A stretch of 64,000 bases of DNA from contig JAUNGC010000005.1 in assembly GCA_030524745.1 (NCBI GenBank), positions 62,001 to 126,000 of the forward strand, in the 5' to 3' direction. Made by a program: the position numbers and the translations under genes. The notes under the pieces were generated by a model, which saw only the letters and a program-made list of their open reading frames with translations, was not told the DNA's origin and did no database searches. Positions 5,816 through 59,635 of this stretch are shown here, piece after piece (positions within the stretch are counted from its first letter, which is position 1; each line of letters starts with the position of its first letter). The DNA comes from Eubacteriales bacterium (lineage in GTDB: Bacteria; Bacillota; Clostridia; Lachnospirales; Lachnospiraceae).

Positions 5816-6881
5816 CGATTGCAACAGCCTCCTCGTCTTCCGAAGCCGGTTTGTTCATGATCTGAATATCGAAGGGATCCACCCTGATACCAACTCTTGT
5901 GCCCACCGGGAACATATCGGTGGAGTGAACCAGCCATTCAAAACCGTTTGCAGTAACTTCCATCTCGTAGTGAACGCCTTTGAAGATCAGATGGGTGACA
6001 ACGCCTTCCAGCGTACCTTCCTCCGGCTTGACCAGATCCACGTCTTCCGGACGGATCACCACGTCCACGGGCTTGTTCTGCCCGAAACCTTTGTCCACAC
6101 AGGCAAATTTCGCACCGAGTATTTCCACCAGTTCATCCCGGATCATGGTGGAAGCGATAATATTGGAATCGCCGATAAAGTCCGCCACAAAAGCGTTTTC
6201 CGGCTCATTGTATATTTTTTCCGGGGTGCCGATCTGCTGGATATAGCCCTGGTTCATGACGACGATGGTATCGGACATGGTGAGGGCCTCTTCCTGGTCG
6301 TGGGTGACATAGATGAAGGTGATGCCCAGTTCGTTTTTCAGGCGGATCAGTTCATATTGCATGTCCTGGCGCAGCTTTAAGTCCAGCGCGCCCAGCGGTT
6401 CGTCCAGAAGCAGAAGCTTCGGTTCGTTCACAATGGCGCGGGCGATCGCAATACGCTGCTGCTGGCCGCCGCTTAAGGAATCGGGCATACGGTTCTCAAA
6501 ACCGTCCAGGTTTACCAGCTTCAGGGCATATTTGATCTTATCGTTTATATAGGATTTGGTTTTTCCTTTGATTTTTAAGCCGAAAGCGATATTTTCCGCA
6601 ATAGTCATATGGGGAAAAAGCGCATATTTCTGGAAAACAGTGTTGAGCTGACGTTTGTTCGGCGGAAGATTGGTGATATCCTGTCCGTTAAAATAGACGA
6701 TACCCTGGTCGGGCTTTTCAAAGCCGCCGATGATGCGCAGCGTGGTGGTTTTCCCGCAGCCGCTGGGACCCAAAAGCGTCAGAAATTCATTCTCACGAAT
6801 GTAAAGGTTCATGTCGTCCAGGACCGTATTGTCATCATAAATTTTGGTGATGTGCTGTAAGTCGATCAGTCTCGTGCTCAT
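5808..6881 (-). CDS. potA: Spermidine/putrescine ABC transporter ATP-binding protein PotA
   Basis: A 357-residue ATPase. Walker A is GPSGCGKTT (about residues 38-46), the ABC signature is LSGGQQQR, Walker B is [12 protein letters not shown], and the switch His lies in THDQEEAL. The C-terminal 120 residues form the TOBE-type regulatory domain usual for PotA (MevaI/MalK-like), with [11 protein letters not shown]. It powers polyamine import through PotB/PotC. It follows the XRE-cupin gene by 73 bases in the same direction, with only a small CAGTG/CACTG hairpin between. Confidence 0.95.
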
Positions 6882-50709: not shown

Positions 50710-52785
50710 TTGGGGAAGAAATTATTTATTGCAGAGAAGCCGAGCGTGGCGCAGGAGTTTGCGAAAGCCCTGAAGTATAATTTAAGCCGCAGGGACGGTT
50801 ATCTGGAATCGCAGGAAGCGATTGTGACATGGTGCGTGGGGCATCTGGTTACGATGAGTTATCCGGAAGCTTATGATCTGAAATATAAACGCTGGGCGCT
50901 TGAGACGCTACCGTTTATGCCGGATACTTACCGGTATGAAGTGATTCCGGGGGTGAAGAAGCAGTACGATATCGTCACTTCCCTGCTGAACAGGCCGGAT
51001 GTGGATACCATTTACGTATGCACGGACTCCGGGCGGGAGGGAGAATACATATACAGGCTGGTGGAGCAGCAGGCCGGCGTGCACGGAAAAGAGCGCCGGC
51101 GGGTCTGGATCGATTCCCAGACGGAGGAAGAGATTTTGCGCGGGATCCGGGAAGCGAAGGATCTGTCCGCCTATGACAATCTCTGTGACGCGGCCTATCT
51201 GCGGGCCAAGGAAGACTATCTAATGGGCATCAATTTTTCCCGTGTGCTCACGTTAAAATACGGAAATCACGTGAAGAATTACCTGAAAAAGGACCGGGCG
51301 GTTATCTCCGTTGGCCGCGTGATGACCTGCGTGCTGGGAATGGTGGTCAACCGGGAACGGGAGATCCGCAATTTTGTGAAAACGCCTTTCTACAGGGTGA
51401 CCGGCAGCTTTTCCATTCCGGCGGACGGGGAAGAAAAGCCCTGGCCTTTCGAAGGCGAATGGAAGGCGGCCCAGGGCAGCGCATGGTTTGAATCGCCGCT
51501 TTTATATAAGGAAAACGGATTCAAAGAGAAAAAAGACGCCGAAGCTTTGATGGCAAAGCTTGGCATGCAGCTTCCGGAAGGAACGCCGGCGGAGGAATGC
51601 CGGGGGGCTTTTCTGGAAAAATGCGAGAAAAAGAAAGAACAGAAAAATCCGCCGCTGCTGTACAATCTGGCGGAACTGCAGAACGACTGTTCCAGACTGT
51701 TTAAAATCAGTCCGGACGAAACCCTGCGGATCGCGCAGGAATTGTATGAGAAAAAACTGACCACTTATCCGAGAACGGATGCGAGAGTGCTGTCTTCGGC
51801 GGTGGCGAAGGAAATTCATAAAAATATCGGCGGCCTGCAGAAATATAATCCTGTAGCACCTTTCGCGGCGCAGATTCTGAAGGAAGGCAGCTACAAACAG
51901 ATCGCCAAAACCCGTTATGTAAATGATAAACAAATCACGGATCACTATGCGATTATCCCCACCGGTCAGGGGCTTTCGGCGCTGCAGGCGCTGTCCCCGA
52001 CGGCAGCGAAGGTCTATGAGGTGATCGCGCGGCGGTTCTTAAGCATCTTTTATCCGGCGGCGGTCTATCAGAAAATTTCCCTGACCGTACTGGTGAAGTC
52101 GGCGCAGCTTCCGGCAGGGGAGCGTTTCTTCGCCTCTTTTAAGGTGCTGACGGAAGAAGGATATCTGACGGTGTCGAGACCTTCTTTTTCCGGAAAAAAG
52201 GAAGAAAGCGCGGAGACCGCAAAAAAGGATGGAAACGGTGCGGAAGAAGTAAAATGTGACGCGGCCTTATTTAACAGGCTGCAGAAGCTGAGAAAGGGAA
52301 TGCAGTTTCCGCTTGCCGGTCTTGCAATCAAAGAAGGAGAGACCTCGCCGCCGAAGCGGTATAATTCCGGCACGCTGATTCTGGCCATGGAAAATGCCGG
52401 ACAGCTCATCGAGGATGAAGAACTGCGCGCCCAGATCAAGGGCAGCGGCATCGGCACTTCCGCCACGCGGGCGGAGATTTTAAAAAAGCTTGTGACGATC
52501 GAATATCTGGCGCTCAATAAAAAGACGCAGATCATCACGCCGACGCTGATGGGCGAAATGATTTACGACGTGGTGTCCGATTCCATAAAGCCGCTTTTAA
52601 ATCCTGCGCTCACGGCAAGCTGGGAAAAGGGACTGGCCGGGGTGGCACAAGGGACGATCACGGCGGAAGAATATATGGAGAAACTCAACGGTTTTGTCGC
52701 ACGGCGCACCAACGCTGTGAAGCAGTTAAACAATCAATCGGTTTTGTTCCGGCAGTTTGATGCGAGCGCACAATTTTATAAATAG
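50710..52785 (+). CDS. topB: DNA topoisomerase III
   Basis: A 691-residue type IA topoisomerase. TOPRIM motifs KLFIAEKPSVAQEF and TDSGREGEYIYRL open the protein, and the catalytic Tyr is about residue 353 in LTTYPRTDARVL. GTSATRAEILKKL and ITPTLMGEMIYDVV complete the core. It lacks the long zinc-finger tail of TopA. The start codon is TTG, with GGAGA five bases upstream. It decatenates DNA during replication and repair. The size fits the TopB form seen on Firmicute chromosomes. Confidence 0.95.
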   Translation: MGKKLFIAEKPSVAQEFAKALKYNLSRRDGYLESQEAIVTWCVGHLVTMSYPEAYDLKYKRWALETLPFMPDTYRYEVIPGVKKQYDIVTSLLNRPDVDTIYVCTDSGREGEYIYRLVEQQAGVHGKERRRVWIDSQTEEEILRGIREAKDLSAYDNLCDAAYLRAKEDYLMGINFSRVLTLKYGNHVKNYLKKDRAVISVGRVMTCVLGMVVNREREIRNFVKTPFYRVTGSFSIPADGEEKPWPFEGEWKAAQGSAWFESPLLYKENGFKEKKDAEALMAKLGMQLPEGTPAEECRGAFLEKCEKKKEQKNPPLLYNLAELQNDCSRLFKISPDETLRIAQELYEKKLTTYPRTDARVLSSAVAKEIHKNIGGLQKYNPVAPFAAQILKEGSYKQIAKTRYVNDKQITDHYAIIPTGQGLSALQALSPTAAKVYEVIARRFLSIFYPAAVYQKISLTVLVKSAQLPAGERFFASFKVLTEEGYLTVSRPSFSGKKEESAETAKKDGNGAEEVKCDAALFNRLQKLRKGMQFPLAGLAIKEGETSPPKRYNSGTLILAMENAGQLIEDEELRAQIKGSGIGTSATRAEILKKLVTIEYLALNKKTQIITPTLMGEMIYDVVSDSIKPLLNPALTASWEKGLAGVAQGTITAEEYMEKLNGFVARRTNAVKQLNNQSVLFRQFDASAQFYK

Positions 52786-52801
52786 CATGGAGGATGAAAA
52801 A

Positions 52802-53467
52802 ATGGAAGCAATGAAAGTGAAGAATCTTTACAATCTGGAAGAGACGATTGCGGCGCCTCTTTTGCAGGAGGCGCAATATCCCTGGGAAGTTCTGGGAAAA
52901 ATTAAGGATTTTATTGTGGAGTTGGGCAATTCCCTTCCGGAAGAACGCTTTGAAAAGAGAGGCGAAAATATCTGGGTGGCTAAAAGCGCGAAGGTCGCGC
53001 CGACCGCCTGCTTAAACGGCCCCTGTATTGTGGATGAGGAAGCGGAAATCCGCCATTGCGCCTTTGTGCGCGGCAGCGCGATTATCGGAAAAGGCGCGGT
53101 AGTCGGGAATTCCACGGAACTGAAGAATGTCATTTTGTTCAATAAAGTGCAGGTTCCCCATTACAATTATGTCGGCGACAGCATTCTGGGCTTTAAGGCG
53201 CACATGGGGGCGGGGTCCATCACCTCCAACGTAAAGAGCGATAAAACGCTGGTTGTGGTGAAGAGCAGGGAAGAAGAAATCGAAACCGGACTGAAGAAAT
53301 TCGGCGCCATGCTGGGAGACAATGTGGAAGTGGGCTGCAACAGCGTGCTTTGCCCCGGAACGGTAATCGGCAGAAACACAAACGTGTATCCGCTCTCCAG
53401 AGTGCGCGGCTTTGTGCCTGCCGGATGCATATACAAAAATCAGGGAGAAGTTGTGGAAAAACGGTAA
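52802..53467 (+). CDS. Left-handed beta-helix (hexapeptide repeat) protein, GlmU-like
   Basis: A 221-residue protein. A short N-terminal region (NLYNLEETIAAPLLQEAQYPWEVL) precedes hexapeptide-repeat coils from about residue 60 (VAPTACLNGPCIVDEEAEIRHCAFVRGSAIIGKGAVVGNS). The layout is that of the sugar-phosphate acyl/nucleotidyl group next to GlmU, often annotated as UDP-GlcNAc pyrophosphorylase-like, but the N-terminal pyrophosphorylase domain is missing. Catalytic partner or acetyltransferase role is open. GGAGG lies nine bases before the ATG. Confidence 0.78.
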   Translation: MEAMKVKNLYNLEETIAAPLLQEAQYPWEVLGKIKDFIVELGNSLPEERFEKRGENIWVAKSAKVAPTACLNGPCIVDEEAEIRHCAFVRGSAIIGKGAVVGNSTELKNVILFNKVQVPHYNYVGDSILGFKAHMGAGSITSNVKSDKTLVVVKSREEEIETGLKKFGAMLGDNVEVGCNSVLCPGTVIGRNTNVYPLSRVRGFVPAGCIYKNQGEVVEKR

Positions 53468-53571: not shown

Positions 53572-54636
53572 ATGAAAAAATTAGCAGTTCTTGCCATGGT
53601 GCTTGCCATGACAGCAACAACGCTTGCAGGCTGCGGCAGCGAAGCTACGGCTGAACCTGCAGCGGAGACAACTGCAACGGAAGAAGAAGTTTCCACAGAG
53701 GTTGCGGAAGAGGAAAGCGAAGAGGCTCCCGCAGCAGAAGCAGCGGCTGACGGCACGGTTTACAATATCGGTATCTGCCAGTTGGTACAGCATCCGGCGC
53801 TGGATGCGGCGACCGAGGGCTTTCAGGACGCTTTGACGGAGAAGCTTGGCGACAATGTTGTTTTTGACCTTCAGAATGCATCCGGAGATTCTCCGCTTTG
53901 CGCTACGATCGTGAACCAGTTTGTGGCAGCGGACGTAGACCTGATTCTCGCCAATGCGACGGCGGCTCTGCAGGCTGCGGCACAGGCAACAGAGGACATC
54001 CCGATTCTGGGAACTTCTATCACGGACTATGCAACTGCGCTGGATATCGATAACTGGACCGGAACAACCGGCGTGAATATTTCCGGTACTTCCGATCTGG
54101 CTCCGCTGGAAGAACAGGCGGCTATGCTGAACGAGTTGTTCCCCGATGCGAAGACAGTAGGACTGTTGTATTGCTCCGCAGAACCCAACTCCGAATACCA
54201 GGTGGGGATTGTAAAGGAAAGTTTGGAAAAGATGGGATATACCTGTGAAACTTATACTTTTACAGATTCCAATGACATTGCATCCGTTACAACTGCGGCG
54301 GTTTCCAAGTGCGATGTGATCTATATTCCTACCGATAATACGGCGGCAAACAACACAGAGGTGATTAATAATATCTGCATTCCCAAAGAGGTTCCGGTAA
54401 TCGCCGGCGAAGAGGGAATCTGTTCCGGCTGCGGCGTTGCGACGCTTTCCATCAGCTACTATGACATCGGCTATAAGGCTGGTGAAATGGCATATGAGAT
54501 TCTGGTAAACGGAGCGGATGTTTCCACGATGCCTATCGAATTTGCCCCTCAGGTTACCAAGAAGTATAATGTGGAAAATTGCGAAGCGCTGGGAATTACT
54601 GTTCCGGATGACTATGTAGCAATTGAAGCGGAATAA
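53572..54636 (+). CDS. ABC transporter substrate-binding lipoprotein, TrpX/COG2984 family
   Basis: A 354-residue lipoprotein. The signal peptide ends in lipobox L-A-G-C with the lipidated Cys at residue 21, followed by a low-complexity Ala/Glu/Thr linker to about residue 60. The binding domain (YNIGICQLVQHPALDAATEGFQDAL, IPILGTSITDYATAL, IYIPTDNTAANN) is that of PF04392, whose members include the tryptophan/tyrosine binder TrpX of streptococci. GAGGAGG precedes the ATG. A terminator-like hairpin separates it from the permease, which would let it be made in excess. Confidence 0.9.
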   Translation: MKKLAVLAMVLAMTATTLAGCGSEATAEPAAETTATEEEVSTEVAEEESEEAPAAEAAADGTVYNIGICQLVQHPALDAATEGFQDALTEKLGDNVVFDLQNASGDSPLCATIVNQFVAADVDLILANATAALQAAAQATEDIPILGTSITDYATALDIDNWTGTTGVNISGTSDLAPLEEQAAMLNELFPDAKTVGLLYCSAEPNSEYQVGIVKESLEKMGYTCETYTFTDSNDIASVTTAAVSKCDVIYIPTDNTAANNTEVINNICIPKEVPVIAGEEGICSGCGVATLSISYYDIGYKAGEMAYEILVNGADVSTMPIEFAPQVTKKYNVENCEALGITVPDDYVAIEAE

Positions 54637-54664
54637 GAAAAACCGAATTATATAAAAAGTGCAG

Positions 54665-54709
54665 GGCGGCAAAAAAGGACTTCTCTTTTTTGCTGCCTTT
54701 TGTTATAAT
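54665..54709 (+). terminator. Attenuating terminator and possible extended -10 promoter between binding protein and permease
   Basis: GGCGGCAAAAAAG (54665-54677) pairs with CTTTTTTGCTGCC (54685-54697), then TTTTG. Directly after comes TGTTATAAT (54701-54709), an extended -10 box without a clear -35, which could restart transcription for the permease and ATPase. Confidence 0.6.
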
Positions 54710-54773
54710 ATTGCATGTGTGCGTCTTTTTGGGAATATAGCACAGTTAAAGTACCTTACAGGAGGAAGCGGAC

Positions 54774-55685
54774 GTGGATATCGTGATACTTTTCAATGCT
54801 TTGCCGGGTGCCCTCGCCCAGGGATTGATCTGGGGCGTTATGGCAATCGGCGTTTATGTGACTTACAAAATACTGGATCTGGCGGATCTGACAGTGGATG
54901 GAACCATGTGTACCGGCGGCGCAGTTTGCGTGATGCTGATGCTGAACGGCCATTCCATCGGTTTTTCCCTTTTCTGCGCTTTTCTGGCCGGTATGCTGGC
55001 TGGCCTTGTGACCGGTATTTTTCATACGGCCCTGGGAATTCCCGCAATTCTGGCCGGTATTTTGTCCCAATTGGGGCTGTATTCCATTAATCTGCGCATT
55101 ATGGGGAACAGGGCGAACCAGACGATCAGTGTGAATAAATATAAACTGTTAATCGCAAACCGCGACAATACCAACGCAATTCTTGTTGTGGGGATCATCA
55201 TTCTTGTCCTGATTGCGGTGCTGTATTGGTTTTTTGGAACGGAACTTGGCTGTTCGATCCGCGCTACCGGATCCAACCAGAATATGTCCCGGGCGCAGGG
55301 AATCAATACGGATTTTACAAAGATTCTGGGGCTGATGCTCTCTAACGGCATTGTGGCTTTTGCCAGCGGATTAAACGCGCAATATTCCGGCTTTGCGGAT
55401 GTGAACGCGGGACGGGGTGCGATCGTCATTGGTCTGGCGGCAGTCATCATCGGCGAGGTTTTACTCGGAAAAATCAGCAGGAATTTCGCATTCCACCTTT
55501 TGTCCGTTGTAGTAGGTGCCGTGATTTATTATTTTGTTATTCAGGTGGTTTTGTGGCTGGGATTGAACACAAATGACCTGAAACTGTTTTCGGCTTTGGT
55601 AGTGGCCGCTTTTCTGGCGATTCCTTATGTAAAGGGAAAATATTTTGCAAAGCCGGTGAAAAAGGGAGGTGTGCCCCGTGCTTGA
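54774..55685 (+). CDS. ABC transporter permease, TrpY/COG4120 family
   Basis: A 303-residue membrane protein with eight or nine hydrophobic segments and a LivH-like fold (GLIWGVMAIGVYVTYKILDLADLTVDGT, SIRATGSNQNMSRAQGI). The start codon is GTG, with AGGAGG eight bases upstream. It forms the channel for the binding protein upstream. The stop overlaps the start of the ATPase gene. Confidence 0.92.
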   Translation: MDIVILFNALPGALAQGLIWGVMAIGVYVTYKILDLADLTVDGTMCTGGAVCVMLMLNGHSIGFSLFCAFLAGMLAGLVTGIFHTALGIPAILAGILSQLGLYSINLRIMGNRANQTISVNKYKLLIANRDNTNAILVVGIIILVLIAVLYWFFGTELGCSIRATGSNQNMSRAQGINTDFTKILGLMLSNGIVAFASGLNAQYSGFADVNAGRGAIVIGLAAVIIGEVLLGKISRNFAFHLLSVVVGAVIYYFVIQVVLWLGLNTNDLKLFSALVVAAFLAIPYVKGKYFAKPVKKGGVPRA

Positions 55686-56472
55686 TATCAATGGAATCAG
55701 TAAAACTTTTAATCCCGGAACGGTCAATGAAAAGACTGCCCTGGATGGCCTTTCGCTGCATCTGAACGAAGGGGATTTCGTAACGGTAATCGGCGGAAAC
55801 GGCGCCGGAAAATCCACGATGCTGAATGCTGTCGCCGGAGTATGGGCGGTCGATGAAGGACAGATTGTGATCGGCGGGGTAAATGTTACCCGACTGGCGG
55901 AACACAAAAGAGCGAAATACTTAGGGCGGGTGTTCCAGGATCCCATGACGGGAACGGCCGCCAGCATGCAAATTGAGGAAAACATGGCGATGGCTGCCCG
56001 CAGAGGTAAGGTGAGGACTCTGCGCAGGGGTATTACGAATAAAGAAAGAGAGTTCTATAAAGAACAACTGAAAATATTGGAACTTGGTCTGGAAGACCGT
56101 CTGACGGCAAAAGTCGGCCTTCTCTCCGGCGGGCAGCGGCAGGCGCTGACGCTTCTGATGGCGACCCTGCAGAAGCCGAAGCTGCTGCTTCTGGATGAAC
56201 ATACGGCGGCGCTGGATCCGAAAACGGCAGCGAAGGTGCTGGAAGCAACGGACCGCATTGTGGAAAGAGACCATCTGACCACGATCATGATTACGCATAA
56301 TATGAAGGATGCCATCGCGCACGGCAACCGTCTCGTCATGATGGATGCCGGCAGAATTATCTACGATGTGTCCGGCGAAGAAAAAAGAAAGCTGACCGTT
56401 TCTGATCTTTTGAAGAAGTTTGAAGAGGTGAGCGGAAGCGAATTCGCAAACGACAGAATGATTCTGTCTTAA
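55678..56472 (+). CDS. ABC transporter ATP-binding protein, COG1101 family
   Basis: A 264-residue ATPase. Walker A is GGNGAGKST, the signature LLSGGQRQALTL, Walker B LLLLDEHTAALDP and the switch His in THNMKDAI. The EHTAALDP variant in place of EPTxGLDP is usual in this transporter family. The start is GTG at 55678, eight bases past GGGAGG; a GTG at 55669 overlaps the ribosome site. It completes the binding protein, permease and ATPase set. Confidence 0.93.
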   Translation: MLDINGISKTFNPGTVNEKTALDGLSLHLNEGDFVTVIGGNGAGKSTMLNAVAGVWAVDEGQIVIGGVNVTRLAEHKRAKYLGRVFQDPMTGTAASMQIEENMAMAARRGKVRTLRRGITNKEREFYKEQLKILELGLEDRLTAKVGLLSGGQRQALTLLMATLQKPKLLLLDEHTAALDPKTAAKVLEATDRIVERDHLTTIMITHNMKDAIAHGNRLVMMDAGRIIYDVSGEEKRKLTVSDLLKKFEEVSGSEFANDRMILS

Positions 56473-56614
56473 CTTGTGCTTTTTTGCTAAAAAGGGCTGG
56501 ATTTTTGGCGGAAAATGTGAGAAAATAGCATCAGCGTATGACAGGGTTTATTGCATTTTTTTGCGTGCCCTGTTTACAAATACTCTACTTACATATTTTG
56601 AAAGGAGATTCCAC

Positions 56615-57319
56615 ATGATTTATTCACATGAAGTAGAACAGATGTGCACGGTTGCACAGGGCGTTGCTCATGGCTGTGCTCCCATTCCTGAAGAAGCGAA
56701 ATGGGTAAAAGCAAAAGAAATCAAAGACATTTCCGGTATGACACATGGTGTTGGCTGGTGTGCTCCTCAGCAGGGTGCATGCAAGCTGTCCCTGAACGTA
56801 AAAGAAGGTATCATCCAGGAAGCGCTGGTTGAGACGATCGGCTGCTCCGGCATGACCCATTCCGCAGCTATGGCTGCAGAGATTCTGCCCGGCAGAACCA
56901 TTCTGGAAGCATTGAATACCGACCTTGTTTGTGACGCGATCAATACTGCAATGAGAGAACTGTTCTTACAGATTGTATATGGCCGTTCCCAGTCCGCATT
57001 CTCTGAAGAAGGACTTGCTATCGGCGCAGGTCTGGAGGATCTTGGTAAGGGCTTAAGAAGCCAGGTGGGCACGATGTACGGCACGCTTGCAAAAGGTCCC
57101 CGTTATCTGGAAATGGCAGAAGGCTATGTAACCGGTATCGCTCTGGATGAAGACGATCAGATCATCGGTTACAAGTTCATCAACTTCGGTAAGATGACAG
57201 ACTTCATGAAGAAGGGCGACGACGCTCAGACTGCATACGAGAAGGCATCCGGTCAGTACGGCCGTGTTGCGGATGCGGTGAAGATCATCGATCCCAGAAC
57301 TGACAAGGAGGTAAAATAA
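56615..57319 (+). CDS. NifU-like iron-sulfur cluster scaffold-related protein, partner of GGGtGRT protein
   Basis: A 234-residue cytosolic protein. Residues 45-125 resemble the NifU N-terminal/IscU scaffold fold (VETIGCSGMTHSAAMAAEILPGRTILEAL), with cysteines at 11, 21, 49, 56, 77 and 106. NCBI-type annotation calls this family an iron-sulfur cluster assembly scaffold. It is followed one base later by the GGGtGRT gene, a pairing I know from other anaerobes. AAAGGAGA precedes the ATG. Codons are shifted to GGT, GCT, CGT and AAG types, suggesting strong expression. Its true job is not known. Confidence 0.82.
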   Translation: MIYSHEVEQMCTVAQGVAHGCAPIPEEAKWVKAKEIKDISGMTHGVGWCAPQQGACKLSLNVKEGIIQEALVETIGCSGMTHSAAMAAEILPGRTILEALNTDLVCDAINTAMRELFLQIVYGRSQSAFSEEGLAIGAGLEDLGKGLRSQVGTMYGTLAKGPRYLEMAEGYVTGIALDEDDQIIGYKFINFGKMTDFMKKGDDAQTAYEKASGQYGRVADAVKIIDPRTDKEVK

Positions 57320-57320
57320 C

Positions 57321-58331
57321 ATGGCATTGTTTGAATCCTATGAAAGACGTATTGATCAGATTAACGCTGTATTAAACAGCTATGGAATTGCTTCCATCGA
57401 AGAAGCTGAGAAGATTACAAAAGATGCAGGTCTGGATGTATATCATCAGGTTGAGAAGATTCAGCCCATCTGTTTTGAAAATGCAAAATGGGCTTATACA
57501 GTAGGCGCGGCTATCGCAATTAAGAAGGGTTGCAGAAGAGCGGCGGATGCGGCTGCGGCAATCGGTGAAGGACTTCAGTCCTTCTGTATTCCCGGTTCTG
57601 TTGCCGACCAGCGTAAAGTAGGTCTGGGACACGGCAATCTGGGAAAGATGCTGCTGGAAGAGGATACAGACTGCTTCTGTTTCCTGGCTGGTCATGAATC
57701 CTTCGCTGCTGCAGAAGGCGCAATCGGTATCGCTGAGAAAGCGAACAAAGTTCGTCAGAAACCTCTGCGCGTTATCTTAAACGGTCTTGGTAAGGATGCC
57801 GCACAGGTTATTTCCAGAATCAACGGCTTTACCTATGTTGAGACCGAAATGGATTATTCCACAGGCGAAGTGAAGGAAGTATTCCGGAAGTCTTACTCCG
57901 ACGGCCTTCGCTCCAAAGTTAACTGCTACGGCGCAAACGATGTAACGGAAGGCGTTGCAATCATGTGGAAAGAGGGCGTGGACGTTTCCATCACCGGTAA
58001 CTCCACCAATCCCACCAGATTCCAGCATCCCGTTGCAGGTACCTATAAGAAGGAATGCGTAGAGAAAGGCAAGAAATACTTCTCCGTAGCATCCGGCGGC
58101 GGCACAGGCCGTACCCTGCATCCCGATAACATGGCTGCAGGCCCTGCTTCCTACGGGTTCACCGATACGCTTGGCCGTATGCACTCCGACGCACAGTTCG
58201 CAGGTTCTTCCTCCGTTCCGGCTCACGTTGAGATGATGGGTCTGATCGGTATGGGCAACAACCCGATGGTTGGCGCTACTGTTGCAGTTGCCGTTTCTGT
58301 TGAGGAAGCTGCAAAGGCGGGCAAGTTCTAA
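57321..58331 (+). CDS. GGGtGRT family protein
   Basis: A 336-residue protein named for the motif GGGTGRT (residues 259-265, SVASGGGTGRTLHPDN). Other conserved-looking stretches are AVAIAIKKGCRRAADAAAA-type order, CIPGSVADQRKVGLGHGNLG, CFLAGHESFAAAEGAIGIAEKA and NSTNPTRFQHPVAGTY. No signal peptide or membrane helix. The gene is coupled to the NifU-like gene (one-base gap, GGAGG inside the upstream end) and shares its highly expressed codon style. Biochemical function unknown; the glycine-rich motif could bind a nucleotide or cofactor, which is only a guess. A hairpin terminator follows. Confidence 0.88.
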   Translation: MALFESYERRIDQINAVLNSYGIASIEEAEKITKDAGLDVYHQVEKIQPICFENAKWAYTVGAAIAIKKGCRRAADAAAAIGEGLQSFCIPGSVADQRKVGLGHGNLGKMLLEEDTDCFCFLAGHESFAAAEGAIGIAEKANKVRQKPLRVILNGLGKDAAQVISRINGFTYVETEMDYSTGEVKEVFRKSYSDGLRSKVNCYGANDVTEGVAIMWKEGVDVSITGNSTNPTRFQHPVAGTYKKECVEKGKKYFSVASGGGTGRTLHPDNMAAGPASYGFTDTLGRMHSDAQFAGSSSVPAHVEMMGLIGMGNNPMVGATVAVAVSVEEAAKAGKF

Positions 58332-58355
58332 AATTAAGAGTAAAAAAATCGTTGG

Positions 58356-58390
58356 AAGTGCCGTAAATTCAAGATTTGCGGCACTTTCTT
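58356..58390. terminator. Terminator after GGGtGRT gene, at the element's left side
   Basis: AAGTGCCG (58356-58363) pairs with CGGCACTT (58379-58386), then TCTT. The T-run is short on the plus strand; an A-run on the left gives a tract on the minus strand. Confidence 0.75.
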
Positions 58391-58444
58391 AATACCAGGT
58401 TGTGGAGACAAAAAACAGCCTCAAAACACATAAAATTTGATGGA

Positions 58445-58488
58445 TAACTAACAAACAACTAACGGGTAACTGACAGAGGTAACTAACA
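58445..58488. repeat. Four direct repeats TAACTAACA-type, candidate integrase arm sites
   Basis: TAACTAACA (58445-58453), CAACTAACG (58456-58464), TAACTGACA (58467-58475) and TAACTAACA (58480-58488). Starts are 11, 11 and 13 bases apart, so sites face about the same side of the helix. They lie just beyond the integrase stop codon, toward the element end. Confidence 0.75.
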
Positions 58489-58498
58489 AAAATGTCAA

Positions 58499-58534
58499 TG
58501 AAAAAAGGCAGCAGGAGTGAACCTGTTGCCTTAA
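58499..58534 (-). terminator. Terminator of the integrase gene
   Basis: Read on the minus strand, AAGGCA-AC-AGG pairs with CCT-GC-TGCCTT, followed by TTTTTT, directly after the integrase stop. Confidence 0.85.
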
Positions 58535-58536
58535 AT

Positions 58537-59601
58537 TTATTTGATAATTTTCTGTATTTCGCGGTGCATTTCTTCCATCGTTCGATGCGTGTATGTCTTT
58601 TCAGTGATATCATTGATTGCGTGTCCGACCATCAATTTTATTATGTATTCATCCACACCATATAATTTTGCTTTTGTTATGAATGTGTGTCGGGTATCAT
58701 GGGGTTTATGATCTAAATGCAGACGTTTCATAATCTTGTTCCATCGCCCGCGGTATTTGTCATATGTGAGATGCGTCCCCTGTTGACCGTCCTCGTCATT
58801 AAACAAGTATTCGCTGTTCATTGAGGTAGCTTTCTCATAATTACGTTTTACAAGGTCAAGCACGAGAGGATGGATAGGAACAATCCTGTTTTTTCCGGCA
58901 TCCGTTTTCAATCCTCCCGTGTAAGTCATTGAGTTAAGGTCAACGTCAGAAACTTTTAAAACAGAGAGTTCCTGCGGTCTCCATCCGGAATATATTCCGA
59001 TAATCACCATGTCAACGAAAGGAAAATCGATATGCTCCCAAAGAATAGATATTTCATCATTTGAAAAGGGAATGCGGACTATGTCGGGTTTTGGTCGCTT
59101 GATGCTATCGCATAGTTGCGCATAATTTTTATCCACAATTTCGCTTTTCATAGCATATTTGTACATGAGATTAAAAATACTTTTCATTCTGCCTTTTGTC
59201 GAATCCCCAACATCGGCGTTTTTGATAGTTTGCTCAAGGTGATTCGTGCGTATATCTCGCATTTTCATGTTGTAAAGCGGCGCACAGTATTTATACGCTG
59301 CAGTTATCGTTCGGATGCTCGATTTACTTCCGAGCGTCGGGAAATATCCCTCTGACCACTTTTCATATACCTCTGCGAAAGTGATATTGTTTGTGTCAAG
59401 GTCATATGGATTTTCGTTGTAGTTTACAAGGGCGGTCATTGCCTCCTGCTTTGTTGCATAATATCCGATCGGTCTCTGAATTTGTTTCGCTTTTCCGGTA
59501 TTCTCGTTGATTTCCCATCCAAAGGTTTTTGCAGCAACCCAAGGATGACGGCGTTTTCCGGACAGTTTATAAACGGAACCGAATCCATTTGGTAATTTCA
59601 T
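58537..59601 (-). CDS. int: Tyrosine site-specific recombinase (phage integrase)
   Basis: A 354-residue integrase. An N-terminal arm-binding domain (residues 1-70) precedes a SAM-like core-binding domain (about 70-165) and the catalytic domain. Catalytic residues visible are Arg in YSGWRPQEL, His-x-x-Arg in HDTRHTF, a His in VGHAINDITEKT and the nucleophile Tyr in KTYTHRTMEE (about residue 337). The ATG at 59601 is preceded by GGTGA; a TTG one codon earlier is less likely. It lies at the left end of the element facing outward, next to the arm-type repeats. Confidence 0.94.
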   Translation of the reverse strand: MKLPNGFGSVYKLSGKRRHPWVAAKTFGWEINENTGKAKQIQRPIGYYATKQEAMTALVNYNENPYDLDTNNITFAEVYEKWSEGYFPTLGSKSSIRTITAAYKYCAPLYNMKMRDIRTNHLEQTIKNADVGDSTKGRMKSIFNLMYKYAMKSEIVDKNYAQLCDSIKRPKPDIVRIPFSNDEISILWEHIDFPFVDMVIIGIYSGWRPQELSVLKVSDVDLNSMTYTGGLKTDAGKNRIVPIHPLVLDLVKRNYEKATSMNSEYLFNDEDGQQGTHLTYDKYRGRWNKIMKRLHLDHKPHDTRHTFITKAKLYGVDEYIIKLMVGHAINDITEKTYTHRTMEEMHREIQKIIK

Positions 59602-59635
59602 CAATTTTCACCATCCTAAAAAAGAGTATAAAAAA

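Follow-up and report, generated by a model that had tools for sequence, protein, structure and literature searches.

Two adjacent genes of a clostridial genome, encoding a NifU/IscU-like protein and a GGGtGRT protein, very probably form an iron-sulfur-dependent and probably oxygen-labile enolase that is unrelated in sequence to the canonical enzyme and serves many anaerobes as their main enolase as long as iron is in good supply. A broader reading, which we consider likely at a lower level of confidence, is that this IscU-derived catalytic subunit and its GGGtGRT partner constitute a principal enolase in the glycolysis of anaerobes from four or more phyla, with textbook enolase serving as a repeatedly lost backup for times of low iron or oxygen. 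The cluster mechanism proposed below is less certain than the identity of the pair as an enolase. The analysis started from a DNA window (the whole stretch that was analyzed, 64,000 nt) of Eubacteriales bacterium, assembly GCA_030524745.1, contig JAUNGC010000005.1, forward-strand positions 62,001-126,000.

The gene pair and its surroundings

Features of the locus are shown in Table 1. The two genes, as the initial annotation had stated, are one base apart (stop of the NifU-like gene to start of the GGGtGRT gene). Also as described there, the first protein contains six Cys residues (C11, C21, C49, C56, C77 and C106), and the GGGTGRT motif occupies residues 259-265 of the second, 336-residue protein.

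Table 1. Features of the gene pair and its upstream region (window coordinates)
Feature	Position	Strand	Remarks
ABC transporter: substrate-binding protein, permease, ATPase	53572-56469		upstream of pair; profile searches
gaaaggag, ribosome-binding-site-like	56600-56607	+	read in sequence; 7 bases 5′ of first ATG
NifU/IscU-like subunit	56615-57319	+	ATG ORF, 234 aa; proposed [4Fe-4S] subunit
GGGtGRT subunit	57321-58331	+	ATG ORF, 336 aa; proposed substrate-binding subunit
Inverted repeat, possible terminator of pair	58356-58386	+	by eye; 8 pairs, 15-base loop, then TCTT

The possible terminator was not among the results of an inverted-repeat scan, which covered loops of 3-8 bases only. No promoter-like site was found in front of the pair; the region 56400-58500 gave a single one, located inside the GGGtGRT gene (mean of 2.4 in shuffled sequences). 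Another inverted repeat, ACAGGG...CCCTGT, was seen by eye at 56541-56573 in the gap 5′ of the pair and is a possible operator. The commonest neighbors of the pair were a transferase-like and a topoisomerase-like family (both named by eye), each present in 22 of 99 loci, and no other family exceeded this number. A member of the transferase-like family lies upstream of the pair in the window (52757-53467).

Codon usage

Codon adaptation was calculated with 19 ORFs of the ribosomal protein cluster of the window genome as the reference, and the background consisted of 173 further ORFs, called mechanically and 150 aa or longer. The codon adaptation index (CAI) was 0.774 for the NifU-like gene and 0.747 for the GGGtGRT gene, compared to a ribosomal mean of 0.730 and a background mean of 0.506 (sd 0.060), and none of the 173 background ORFs was as high as the pair. 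The initial annotation had pointed to unusual codons and proposed a comparison with ribosomal genes, and the adaptation of the pair was indeed far from average. Among the codons that it named, GGT (0.39 of its codon family in the pair vs 0.11 in the background), GCT (0.34 vs 0.11) and CGT (0.40 vs 0.13) were strongly enriched, whereas the effect for AAG was weak (0.56 vs 0.45).

Enolase genes are usually strongly codon-biased. The two canonical enolases of the window genome were weakly adapted compared to the pair (CAI 0.573 and 0.467), and bulk glycolytic flux therefore seems to use something else in this organism. In the region L175, 2735-14984, one copy is located between ahpC, accompanied by an ahpF-like gene, and a suf cluster, as if it were part of an oxygen and iron stress set; the other (L176, 5351-6640) is the copy with the below-average CAI of 0.467.

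Sequence families and conserved residues

The GGGtGRT protein matched PF14057 over the entire profile (positions 1-327 of 327) with 632.6 bits (cut-off 27). In the first protein, a match to NifU_N (PF01592) was found at residues 56-113, its 19.7 bits falling short of the curated cut-off (22), and the NCBIfam scaffold profiles TIGR03419, TIGR01999 and TIGR01994 gave 24.7, 20.4 and 17.2 bits (cut-offs 187.9, 192.4 and 92.5, respectively). By the curated cut-offs of all four profiles, this protein falls outside the IscU/NifU scaffold families. Its resemblance to them is confined to about residues 45-113, and the profile comparison indicates that the IscU/NifU-like segment reported in the initial annotation is real but remote. 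Within the profile alignment, C77 falls on the second IscU Cys, and C49 and C106 are without clear alignment partners. Neither subunit matched the Pfam enolase families (Enolase_N and Enolase_C) at E values up to 1, and no relative of GGGtGRT was found in the PDB at E < 0.01.

C49, C77, C106 and H44 were unvarying in 126 of 126 distinct NifU-like sequences, all of which were at least 59% identical to the protein of the window, and in five further records. C56 was replaced once by Val and, in Vibrio, by Ala, and both C11 and C21 were variable. Among 131 distinct GGGtGRT sequences there was no invariant Cys; invariant residues included six His, three Lys, four Asp and seven Arg (R10, R98, R145, R166, R233, R264 and R286). 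Judged by their conservation, C49, C77 and C106 are compatible with a putative [4Fe-4S] cluster that would leave one iron open.

Pairing and distribution

Occurrence of the two genes was assessed in a class sample of 233 genomes, at least 95% complete and evenly drawn, plus the window genome (93%). GGGtGRT was detected in 116 of the 233 genomes, all of which had a strong NifU-like match. Strong matches to the NifU-like profile (E < 1e-70) were present in 117 genomes, i.e., the same 116 and G633, in which the NifU-like gene occurs without GGGtGRT and sits at a contig end. Weaker NifU-like matches in this sample (2e-8 to 6e-4) presumably represent ordinary NifU, IscU or SufU. Both genes could be placed in 103 loci, always on the same strand and at distances of -34 to +263 bp (three read-through artefacts excluded). 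The pair is nearly obligate, beyond chance; the initial annotation had joined the two genes in one system, and the frequent separate occurrence that would have spoken against it was not seen (116 of the 117 NifU-like-positive genomes carry GGGtGRT). A natural fusion of both genes in L086 was ruled out by a stop codon between them.

The pair was also found side by side in records from Vibrio, Collinsella, Parabacteroides (in which a short annotated ORF separates the genes), Persicobacter and Subdoligranulum, and it occurs, window included, in at least four phyla. Vibrio is a genus of facultative anaerobes; the pair of Vibrio sp. THAF191d, which has the C56 to Ala replacement, lies on a 1.85 Mb replicon (L184, 7245-8954). 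In Collinsella aerofaciens (L185, 116-8993), the pair follows sufC, sufB, sufD-, sufS- and sufU-type genes and a transposase.

Loss of canonical enolase in genomes that contain the pair

Canonical enolase was scored by PF00113, a profile that detected it in each of 14 control genomes. Weak or partial matches (e.g., G395, G500 and G344) were scored as present, and genomes without a listed match were taken as negatives, with counts that agree with the overall tallies. Enolase was missing in 39 of the 233 class genomes, and GGGtGRT was present in 38 of these 39 compared to 78 of the 194 genomes with enolase (one-sided Fisher p 1.9e-12, to be read with genomes, like the families that follow, as only partly independent). 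At the level of families, an enolase-less genome occurred in 18 of 38 families with GGGtGRT vs 1 of 30 without it (p 3e-5). Exchange of one gene for the other was visible even within families: genomes with only enolase and with only GGGtGRT numbered 3 and 2 in f102, 6 and 1 in f105, and 1 and 1 in f135, respectively, and the within-family probabilities multiplied over five families gave 0.0027. In the family of the window (248 genomes), GGGtGRT was present in 41 of 42 enolase-less genomes and enolase in 34 of 35 GGGtGRT-less genomes (one-sided p 0.008). A phylum sample of 199 genomes contained GGGtGRT in 3 of 10 enolase-less genomes vs 7 of 189 others (p 0.009).

Exceptions were observed. In the phylum sample, seven of the ten enolase-less genomes were also without GGGtGRT (completeness 97, 94, 93, 91, 85, 79 and 78%), and the three that carried it were 100, 83 and 81% complete. 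Neither gene was found in G202 (96% complete) and G549 (99%) of the class and family samples. Canonical enolase was retained by 78 of the 116 GGGtGRT carriers of the class, and the window genome has two copies.

We also examined enzymes that act near the missing step. Pyruvate kinase was present in 30 of the 39 enolase-less class genomes and absent from the other 9. A match to methylglyoxal synthase was found in 24 of the 39, with 16 above the curated cut-off; in the 15 without such a match, GGGtGRT was always present.

Organisms without enolase have been described before. They include Butyrivibrio strains (PMC2914790, PMC6912079), Butyrivibrio, Prevotella and Lachnospiraceae (PMC6118326, whose authors looked for a function that would complement the loss, an effort that "yielded no substantial additional insights"), Oscillibacter (PMC3558957), Prevotella brevis ("no easy explanation", PMC10542786) and Endomicrobia (PMC11257099, PMC12483993). 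The enolase of B. fibrisolvens 16/4 is reported as truncated; both genes of the pair are intact in this strain (L066). Very low enolase activity is reported for extracts of B. proteoclasticus B316; if this strain carries the pair and the assay was free of oxygen, this would count against the pair as an enolase.

Glycolytic operon and fluoride-riboswitch loci

In all three genomes of f33, a family other than that of the window, the pair was part of a glycolytic operon with the order gap-pgk-tpi-gpmI-NifU-like-GGGtGRT on one strand (G174, G029 and G144, corresponding to loci L153, L154 and L155), the glycolytic genes being confirmed by Pfam. In G174, pyk comes next after GGGtGRT. In B. subtilis and its relatives, it is eno that occupies the position taken here by the pair. 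Glycolytic neighbors of the pair were seen in f33 only, and all three genomes keep a canonical enolase elsewhere. With the glycolytic genes as the reference, the contrast in codon adaptation was clear in G029 (enolase 0.409 vs 0.71 and 0.76 for the pair) and slight in G174, whose enolase (0.679) was nearly as adapted as the pair (0.71 and 0.734).

Fluoride inhibits enolase and is a classical poison of this enzyme. In G089, G125 and G186, two CrcB-type genes and a DUF190 gene were located downstream of the pair and a fluoride riboswitch upstream of it (46.5, 57.3 and 58.5 bits; gathering score 34), with a TauE-type gene in between in G089. One or both of the CrcB genes of each genome were placed by sequence similarity and the others by Pfam. 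No fluoride riboswitch at or above the gathering score was found in the window or in the other loci scanned, namely L002-L006, L010, L032, L066, L072, L085, L123-L156 and L160-L170. L159 contains a second fluoride riboswitch (6015-6076), immediately 5′ of DUF190 in that operon.

Response to iron in published data

In a published C. pasteurianum proteome (PMC5395762), the level of GGGtGRT with iron exceeded that without iron 7.1-fold (early) and 2.2-fold (late), and the NifU-related protein whose tag is listed next was 2.4/1.6- and 3.7/2.9-fold up with iron. Enolase was 4.1/4.0- and 4.8/1.8-fold higher without iron, and GapA and TpiA changed 1.6- and 1.5-fold in the direction opposite to enolase. 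This table also shows flavodoxin and pyruvate formate-lyase up without iron, and hydrogenase, pyruvate:ferredoxin oxidoreductase (PFOR) and aconitase up with iron. Data for B. thetaiotaomicron (PMC10434189) list the pair (BT0173-74) as 11-12.8-fold down without iron (P 0) and the eno row as 2.0-7.7-fold up, a change that was not significant (P 0.144). In Bacteroidetes of the chicken caecum, GGGtGRT and NifU are described as expressed, with little or no phosphoglycerate mutase and enolase; the authors of one such expression study interpreted their own data as flux into serine. Both proteins are also named in rumen and faecal metaproteomes (PMC7035244, PMC13041051).

Alternative explanations

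The initial annotation had suggested a metal-cluster carrier with a nucleotide- or cofactor-binding partner. The near-obligate pairing, the very high codon adaptation and the remote IscU kinship of a Cys-containing first protein make it plausible that a metal-cluster protein is combined with a partner that binds a small molecule, whereas the carrier role is not supported. That the pair is an abundant Fe-S cluster carrier, store or repair complex, linked to enolase loss through shared ancestry or anaerobic life, would agree with its remote IscU/NifU likeness, its higher protein level with iron and the adjoining sufCBDSU genes in Collinsella. However, this reading, which we regard as improbable, leaves unexplained the eno position in three operons, the within-family swaps and the opposite iron response of enolase and the pair, and it has to accommodate a GGGtGRT protein without an invariant Cys and with many invariant basic residues. 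Because enolase is replaced both across genomes and in the operon, and because the iron regulation is opposite to that of enolase, the evidence argues for a metabolic enzyme rather than a carrier. Such an enzyme might instead bypass enolase at the same node, for example by converting 2-phosphoglycerate to pyruvate and phosphate or by a reaction of glycerate. The same phyletic and operon evidence and the absence of pyruvate kinase from 9 of the 39 enolase-less genomes fit this possibility, but pyruvate kinase is kept in the other 30 and the G174 operon continues with pyk, so that phosphoenolpyruvate seems to be the product and a bypass is still less probable than a carrier.

A methylglyoxal shunt serving enolase-less bacteria, with the pair unrelated to the gap, has been proposed for Butyrivibrio, and the methylglyoxal synthase matches in 24 of the 39 genomes (16 over the cut-off) are in its favor. 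The 15 genomes without such a match, all of which have GGGtGRT, imply that the shunt is not a general answer; in addition, it is apparently not encoded in B. proteoclasticus and would cost ATP, as stated in PMC11026938. We consider this explanation very unlikely. It is just as hard to believe that the pair is a non-glycolytic fluoride-stress protein: the riboswitch, crcB and DUF190 genes of three genomes point in this direction, but a riboswitch at the gathering score was absent from the window and the other scanned loci, and the pair of the window is very highly codon-adapted without a fluoride context.

A proposed iron-sulfur enolase

The reaction proposed for the pair is the hydro-lyase conversion of 2-phospho-D-glycerate to phosphoenolpyruvate. 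The NifU-like subunit would hold a [4Fe-4S] cluster through C49, C77 and C106, with one iron open. L-serine dehydratase, a [4Fe-4S] enzyme, dehydrates serine, and 2-phosphoglycerate corresponds to serine whose amino group is exchanged for phosphate. By analogy, the open iron may bind the carboxylate and the C3 hydroxyl of 2-phosphoglycerate and remove the hydroxyl, as in L-serine dehydratase with serine. GGGtGRT could bind the phosphate by its invariant Arg, His and Lys residues and glycine-rich loops, and would supply the base. Canonical Mg-dependent enolase would then serve as the backup when iron is scarce or oxygen is present. An enzyme that lacks the Mg site may also resist fluoride, which might account for fluoride-riboswitch control in some lineages.

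Compared to canonical enolase (PF03952 and PF00113, EC 4.2.1.11), the pair shares the proposed reaction, the gpmI/pyk operon position, high expression and a complementary distribution, but it lacks a sequence match, has two subunits and is predicted to use an iron-sulfur cluster rather than magnesium. The IscU/NifU/SufU scaffolds (PF01592) align with residues 45-113 or so of the first subunit; in contrast to them, this subunit is longer, scores below the cut-off, has its own Cys pattern, nearly always occurs with GGGtGRT and is, by codon use, far more abundant. Three invariant Cys residues, an iron-raised protein level and the proposed dehydration of a small hydroxy acid recall the [4Fe-4S] hydro-lyases L-serine dehydratase and aconitase, although no sequence match was apparent and an IscU-like fold would have to carry the putative cluster. 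The iron response resembles the iron-sparing pairs ferredoxin/flavodoxin and PFOR/pyruvate formate-lyase, in which the iron form is up with iron and the iron-free form is up without it (PMC5395762); unlike these, no such pair is described for enolase in the literature found. Similarity to crcB (FluC) fluoride-riboswitch operons consists of the riboswitch, crcB and DUF190 found with the pair in three genomes, whereas in the loci scanned the pair mostly occurs without them.

No paper giving GGGtGRT a function, or tying the pair to enolase or to the fluoride riboswitch, was found in the open-access literature searched. Enolase is regarded as a single universal enzyme, and the pair offers a concrete and testable answer to the missing enolase. 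If correct, the proposal would explain glycolysis in enolase-less Butyrivibrio, Prevotella and Oscillibacter, place an iron-sparing switch inside core glycolysis and present a cluster scaffold turned catalyst. It would also amend the metabolic models in use for microbes of the gut and rumen, and would offer an explanation for a possible failure of enolase assays performed in air.

A possible integration site

The 3′ end of the GGGtGRT gene resembles an integration site (window 58331-59604; L001 and L126; viral-contig loci L102-L118). In the window, a phage integrase gene lies downstream of the pair on the opposite strand. A duplicated phage attachment site was not found downstream, either in the window or in the remainder of its contig. 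Two integrase families occurred within about 1.7 kb downstream of the pair, one of them in 7 of 99 loci and the other in 4, and 15 viral-contig loci (within L102-L118) contained only the 3′ part of GGGtGRT.
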